A program made the translations under genes and the position numbers. The notes beneath the pieces were generated by a model. It did not search any database and was not told the DNA's origin. It saw only the letters and a program-made list of their open reading frames with translations. Shown here piece by piece: positions 60,033 to 61,103 of a DNA stretch of 64,000 nt. The DNA is from Candidatus Hydrogenedentota bacterium (GTDB lineage Bacteria; Hydrogenedentota; Hydrogenedentia; Hydrogenedentales; JAEUWI01). Where the stretch lies: positions 248,001 to 312,000 of the forward strand of contig JAHBVV010000001.1 in NCBI GenBank assembly GCA_019637335.1, given 5' to 3'. How positions within the stretch are numbered: the stretch's first letter is position 1; each line of letters begins with the position of its first letter.

Positions 60033-60140
60033 TCCGCACTGGATCTCGCTGGCGAAATCGGCCAAATCGGCGTATCATGATCAATCGACGATAAGATGCG
60101 CCCACGCGGCGCCGCCAGCGCATTTTTGTCATGCCGCGAT

Positions 60141-60196
60141 ACTACTACTACTACTACTACTACTACTACTACTACTACTACTACTACTACTACTAC
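60141..60196 (+). repeat. (ACT)n trinucleotide microsatellite
   Basis: About 18 uninterrupted ACT units, 56 bases, inside the family A copy where the other copies read ATCCTACGACGAG. The poly-Tyr and poly-Thr open frames through it are artefacts. Confidence 0.97.
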
Positions 60197-60319
60197 GAGA
60201 GCGCGCAAGGCTGGGAGCGCAGGTCGAAGACGCGCCGTGGAGGGCGTCCCCGCCTGCCATGCACCGGAGGGGCATGGCGTGTTTGCAATATCGGCACACT
60301 TGATCGGGGAGACAATTGG

Positions 60320-60818
60320 GGCTCATCCGGTTTGAAGGTGCTTCGGCAACGATGACGGCTAAGGGTAGATTACTCGGTTCTCATTTCCGAGCGGCGACGC
60401 TATGAGCGGATACGAGATTCCTTAAACCTTGTCTGTGGTGCAGGCCGTATTTTCGGCAGCAGAACTGGATGCCAACGCACTCTTTCGGCCCGAAGGGCCA
60501 ACGCAGTTTTCAGCCCTGGGCAACGCCCAGGGGTTGAGCGGTGGGTTTCTTATACGCCCTGAAAGGGCAGCGCAGTTGAAATTCAGAAGCGCTGGACCGG
60601 CTCACCACTGCGCTGCCCTTTCAGGGCGGGGAAGGTGGTGTCCCCGTATTCCCCGGGCGTTGCCCGGGGCTGGGAGCTGCACTGGCCCTTCGGGCCGAAA
60701 GGCCAGTCGATACGATTTCACCAACAGAGGCCCCAACCGGCTTACATCGACGGTTCCGGATAATTCGGGCACGGAGAAGCGCCTATGAATAATCCCGTAC
60801 GCTCAAACCGGATGGGCC
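60320..60818 (+). mobile_element. 499-bp inverted-repeat element inserted in a family A copy
   Basis: The ends GGCTCATCCGGTTTGA (60320-60335) and TCAAACCGGATGGGCC (60803-60818) are inverted at 15 of 16 positions. They are flanked directly by ACAATTGG at 60312-60319 and 60819-60826, a perfect 8-bp target duplication. Removing the element restores the family A sequence. The interior is made of small palindromes shared with 16990-17215. No transposase is encoded. Confidence 0.88.
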
Positions 60819-61103
60819 ACAATTGGACCCGGACTACCGCTGTTTAACGGACTCGCGCCTCCGGCGCGTTGCGGGCGGGCCGCCCGCGCTCCCATTCGTC
60901 CGTACTTCCGTTGCGGCGCGGGATTCTTTCGTCGAGGATTCAAGCCAGCTTCATTCCGGCTTAGAATTACGAGTTTTGTGGGAGGCGGTTTCATCCAAGT
61001 ATAGTGAGTAAGTGAATAACCACGGGCAGCCGGGGCGCCGCCAGACTGACTATCGCCCCGCCGGAAACTGGGGCCGTCGTCGCGCCCCCTTCGGGCGCGC
61101 CGA

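Follow-up and report, generated by a model that had tools for sequence, protein, structure and literature searches.

Between two genes of the 64,000-nucleotide Candidatus Hydrogenedentota sequence analysed here (the window), one repeat is found inside another, raising the question of what the inner segment is and which transposase placed it there. The pair is intergenic: on one side an unassigned gene ends at 60032, and on the other a PAS/GAF sensor histidine kinase frame starts near 61122. An earlier note on this DNA described the inner segment as a 499-bp element with no transposase of its own, inserted with an 8-bp target duplication into the third copy of a repeat termed family A, and held that the locus gave both the order of events and the exact ends of the element. 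With a probability of about 0.9, we regard the segment as a non-autonomous element (MITE) of the ISL3 type.

The description of the element was borne out by re-analysis (Table 1). Its first and last 16 bases pair as inverted repeats at 15 positions, and the 8-mer ACAATTGG that directly adjoins both ends is a perfect duplication, occurring in the window at these two places only (both strands considered). The MITE end sequence has two matches in the window where shuffles predict 0.17. A search of the 499 bp for open reading frames found none of transposase length, the longest being of 119 aa. Removal of the MITE with one ACAATTGG joins the flanks as ...GGGGAGACAATTGGACCCGGAC..., colinear with family A, and the joined sequence aligns both to the uninterrupted window copy (...GGGGAGACGATTGGACCCGGAC...) and to other copies in the genome.

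Table 1. Positions in the window of the nested elements, their repeats and the hairpins of the MITE core.
Feature	Position	Strand	Details
MITE, ISL3-type, without transposase gene	60320..60818	+	499 bp exactly
Left terminal inverted repeat of MITE	60320..60335	+	GGCTCATCCGGTTTGA
Right terminal inverted repeat of MITE	60803..60818	-	GGCCCATCCGGTTTGA on minus strand
MITE end sequence			GGYTCATCCGGTTTGA; ends also written GGYTCATCC
Target site duplication, left copy	60312..60319	.	ACAATTGG; adjoins MITE
Target site duplication, right copy	60819..60826	.	ACAATTGG; adjoins MITE
Host family A copy, left part	60113..60319	+	Ends with one target duplicate; blastn to window 9710-9847; alignment with 30 genome copies
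Host family A copy, right part	60827..60970	+	Degenerate terminal repeat (..GGCTTAGAATTAC) at end
Intact family A copy without insertion	9685..9988	+	304 bp; terminal inverted repeat GTAATACTTTAGC..; perfect 8-bp duplication GAAGAGAG
Second family A copy without insertion	46762..47067	-	
Hairpin P1	60487..60499	+	GGCCCGAAGGGCC
Hairpin P2	60514..60532	+	CCCTGGGCAACGCCCAGGG; core GGGCAACGCCC is the IS4-family insertion site in four other copies
Hairpin P3	60556..60568	+	GCCCTGAAAGGGC
Hairpin P3'	60615..60627	+	GCCCTTTCAGGGC
Hairpin P2'	60651..60669	+	CCCCGGGCGTTGCCCGGGG
Hairpin P1'	60684..60696	+	GGCCCTTCGGGCC

The flanks belong to the same repeat as the two uninterrupted family A copies of the window. 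Delimited copies of this family are some 305 bp long, with terminal inverted repeats (TIRs; GTAAYACTTTAGCSG) and 8-bp duplications that are often perfect; family A is therefore also MITE-like. The host copy is decayed, having lost its first 24 bp or so, left terminal repeat included, and having a degenerate right terminal repeat. It also contains a perfect (TAC)19 run (60140-60196), of a length seldom reached by trinucleotide repeats in bacteria; other copies show no more than one or two TAC-like triplets there. Were the 499 bp permanently built into family A, or an artefact of recombination or assembly, their position within a family A copy would be accounted for, this being the single observation in favour of such a reading. 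However, at least 40 family A copies in the genome match across the site as one uninterrupted block, MITE copies lie at many unrelated sites with 8-bp duplications of their own, and an identical 499-bp copy is present on contig 49, so that we consider this alternative scarcely credible.

The order of events proposed for the locus, family A first and the 499-bp MITE second, stands for the window but is a local order only. At C1:12967-13807 (L065:468-1308) the nesting is the opposite: inside a MITE copy lies a 331-bp element that has the ends of family A and is flanked by its own 8-bp duplication AACTTCAG. Since nesting is seen in both orders, the two families were active over overlapping periods. 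The locus thus offers a clean case of one MITE family nested in another, from a phylum that has been little studied.

The genome (7.16 Mb in 55 contigs) was searched with the 499 bp, yielding about twenty near full-length copies at 81-100% identity. The family as delimited has the features by which bacterial MITEs are recognised: TIRs, no transposase gene, at least 26 two-ended copies, and target duplications of constant length (12 of them perfect over 8 bp) accompanied by empty sites. In a further eight of the 26 copies the duplication is retained at 6-7 of 8 positions. The perfect duplications are 80% A+T, against a G+C content of 65% in the window. One empty site, AACGCGAATTGTATGG, is provided by the other members of a different repeat family, into which the copy at C1:890522 is inserted. 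The contig 49 copy is identical at 499 of 499 positions and its flanks are unrelated to those of the window copy, which indicates recent movement. Further copies are cut by about ten contig ends, and a multi-copy parent could therefore be missing from the assembly. A search of plasmids and phages for similar DNA returned none.

A transposase gene bounded by the same ends, which the earlier note had proposed to look for, does exist, although it proved misleading. Four MITE copies (L061, L062, L063 and L064) reach 1.86-1.91 kb and contain genes for IS4-type transposases, which score above the cut-off of the NCBI IS4 model and are mostly broken, a long open frame (402 codons) being present only in the copy at C1:890522. 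With the outer ends of the MITE, three perfect 8-bp duplications and encoded DDE_Tnp_1 transposases, these copies might be taken for an autonomous IS4-family parent from which the 499-bp form arose by internal deletion. The transposase segment, however, has ends of its own (both termini CATAAGCGYTAACTT) and its own 11-bp flanking duplication, GGGCAACGCCC, corresponding to the middle part of P2. All four insertions are at exactly the same 11 bp, and two different elements are involved, one of them found there in both orientations. Moreover, the inserts fit the IS231 subgroup of IS4, known for CAT ends and 10-12 bp duplications (PMC2266710), and not an element that duplicates 8 bp; the YREK motif of that subgroup, YRGRWQIELVFKRLK, is present in the L062 frame. 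The second TIR pair and the 11-bp duplication led us to reject the long copies as autonomous parent, a reading that we now hold to be very improbable. The four 1.9-kb copies are MITEs with inserted IS4 elements of IS231-subgroup character, and illustrate a trap: a longer copy of a MITE that encodes a transposase is not necessarily the parent. Two of the four have in common an internal 25-bp duplication and the orientation of the insert, yet differ in their flanks; here the composite of MITE and IS4 element may have moved as a unit, or recombination may have produced the similarity.

Palindromic repeats (REP sequences) are targets of insertion sequences (Tobes and Pareja 2006, PMC1525189). The repeated striking of P2 by IS4-type elements, in four copies and with 11-bp duplications, resembles such systems and the IS231 subgroup (PMC2266710), but here the palindromes are located inside a MITE, and the RAYT gene that adjoins RAYT-linked REP sequences was not seen beside them.

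Ends that start with GG, together with an 8-bp A+T-rich duplication, suggest ISL3 or IS1595 as the mover of the MITE. No IS1595 gene was found in the window's genome, and that family was rejected as parent. A search of the same genome, whose assembly is broken at MITE copies, gave no match to the ISL3 transposase (PF01610), and none was detected in the congeneric Dive100 genome. Possession of such a transposase characterises the autonomous element and is not demanded of a MITE.

When 84,980 species genomes were scanned with the end sequence GGYTCATCCGGTTTGANSGT, 23 stretches were returned. Five of these, on Desulfobulbaceae, Desulfobacteraceae or proteobacterial contigs and all interrupted by contig ends, have a common sequence inside the end. 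In the two that are long enough, both from Desulfobulbaceae UBA10518, this sequence is a reading frame, the longer example of which matches DDE_Tnp_ISL3 (E 8e-30) and HTH_Tnp_ISL3 and lies above the cut-off of the NCBI ISL3 model. The element containing this ISL3 frame opens with the exact 20-bp end of the MITE, GGCTCATCCGGTTTGAGCGTAC. A related ISL3 element, carried by the Pseudodesulfovibrio profundus plasmid paDPRO (NZ_LT907976), is complete: it is bounded on either side by the TIR GGTTCATCCGGCTAAAGCGTACTT, and its 8-bp duplication, CTAATGGT, is perfect. Its outer ends are nearly identical to those of the MITE (GGTTCATCCGGCTAAAGCGTAC), being equal to the commonest MITE end at 19 of 22 positions and different at 3, while an intact transposase gene occupies the place taken in the MITE by a hairpin core. 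The MITE therefore shows both ISL3-type features, ends that match those of ISL3 elements and 8-bp A+T-rich duplications.

An ISL3 transposase was thus probably the mover of the MITE, a judgement that draws on the ends and the duplication length, no partner having been detected in the window's genome. The mover could instead have come from another family that duplicates 8 bp, such as IS256, and have used similar ends; the genome does contain two intact IS256-type genes, against no detected ISL3 gene. The ends of its IS256 copies (..AACTTTCTGTAA / TTACAGAAAGTT..) nevertheless differ from those of the MITE, and with IS1595 not found there and ISL3 elements elsewhere matching in ends and duplication length alike, we consider another family unlikely. 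The simplest account is an ISL3 transposase that acted in trans and is now lost, was transient or is missing from the assembly. Such a DDE transposase would recognise the two ends of the MITE in trans and pair them, then cut the element out or copy it, and join it to staggered cuts made 8 bp apart in A+T-rich DNA, the repair of which would leave the 8-bp duplication. One such event would have delivered the MITE to an intergenic family A repeat that was already in place. The ends, duplications, empty sites, copy number and recent movement are demonstrated, as is the sharing of ends with ISL3 elements elsewhere; the agency of the ISL3 transposase is our inference, and movement may have been by cut-and-paste or by copying. 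In this way a nested MITE predicts the transposase family of its mover.

The related end GGTTCATCCGGTYTTGGCGTACTTGG marks a second repeat family, represented at L089-L093 and L079. Elements at both sets of loci, with the related end GGTTCATCCGGTYTTGGCGT, were rejected as parents: a second matching end was not found for L089-L093, and no transposase was recognised between the ends of L079.

ISL3-type MITEs are already known, and the window element joins them. The 187-bp MITE of Microcystis aeruginosa (PMC11448079) similarly lacks a transposase, has short TIRs (GGCTCTTCG) matching those of ISL3 elements, and is accompanied by 8-bp duplications, tens of copies and a strong RNA fold. It differs in being shorter, in having an ISL3 partner in its own genome, and in the sequence of its TIRs and interior. 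The ISMac21-related MITE of Methanosarcina acetivorans (179 bp; PMC3852290) is likewise non-autonomous and of ISL3 type, but has an archaeal host and 6 copies. Closer to hand, eight of the 23 stretches from the end scan belong to Candidatus Hydrogenedentota Dive100_bin1.12, congeneric with the window's genome. Its core matches lie at the coordinates of those in G004, a genome listed under the genus of the window's genome, which suggests that the window belongs to this phylum. Its elements of about 410 bp agree with the MITE in their ends, are flanked by duplications of 8 bp (two perfect, one at 7 of 8 positions), and keep the mirrored palindrome order described below although their interior sequence differs. 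Miniature elements of 79-100 bp with the ends of the MITE are present in the Planctomycetota MAG Prado173 (L146:7699-7798 and L150:6653-6731).

The less ordinary part of the element is its hairpin core (60487-60696), which we could not match to any described family. It consists of six REP-like palindromes in the mirror order P1-P2-P3 ... P3'-P2'-P1', and the fold of the 499 bp as a whole is much more stable than that of shuffles (z = -11.7). In a set of 30 distinct sequences, the local hairpins show 98.6% pairing and a covariation score of 0.105; shuffles give 0.028, and not one of 500 came as high. Pairing at long range between the two halves, by contrast, has a score of 0.022, which does not exceed that of shuffles. 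A single 51-bp inverted repeat was discarded on this basis as the structure under conservation, its long-range pairs lacking the covariation seen in the local hairpins. Conservation appears to lie in the small hairpins rather than in the long inverted repeat; the evidence is strong but not conclusive, because related sequences can beat shuffles without any structure.

The core also exists apart from the MITE ends, within a different repeat family of the window's genome and also in congeners. In the window, such a palindromic core, 76% identical, lies at 16992-17199. On a Pirellulales contig (L148:3024) the same 20-bp end is followed by similar palindromes (GGCCCAAAGGGCC, CCCCAGGCATCGCCTGGGG). 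A REP/RAYT origin of the core was rejected, the hairpin units being present at none of 12 Y1_Tnp loci. Matches to Rfam microRNAs fell below the gathering score and are expected of any long perfect hairpin. The P2'-P1' pair does resemble the Acido-Lenti-1 RNA (Rfam RF01687, gathering score 37); one congeneric core exceeds that score at 38.2 bits, while the window copy, at 21.4 bits, falls short of it.

As a best guess, we take the hairpins to be passenger DNA palindromes that serve as landing sites for IS4 elements, with a role as RNA still conceivable. More speculatively, and in our view doubtfully, the mirrored six-hairpin core may be a portable unit that travels across Hydrogenedentota, and possibly Pirellulales, in mobile repeats whose ends differ, and that is under selection at each local hairpin; Acido-Lenti-1 would then be one face of this unit and not a free-standing regulatory RNA. 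The shared, covarying core in any case brings together mobile repeats, sites of IS insertion and a candidate RNA family that is already catalogued. Matches to RF01687 within the hairpin cores of mobile repeats are located at L155:2882-2926, L164:4041-4246 and window positions 60486-60532, that of L155 alone scoring above the gathering score.
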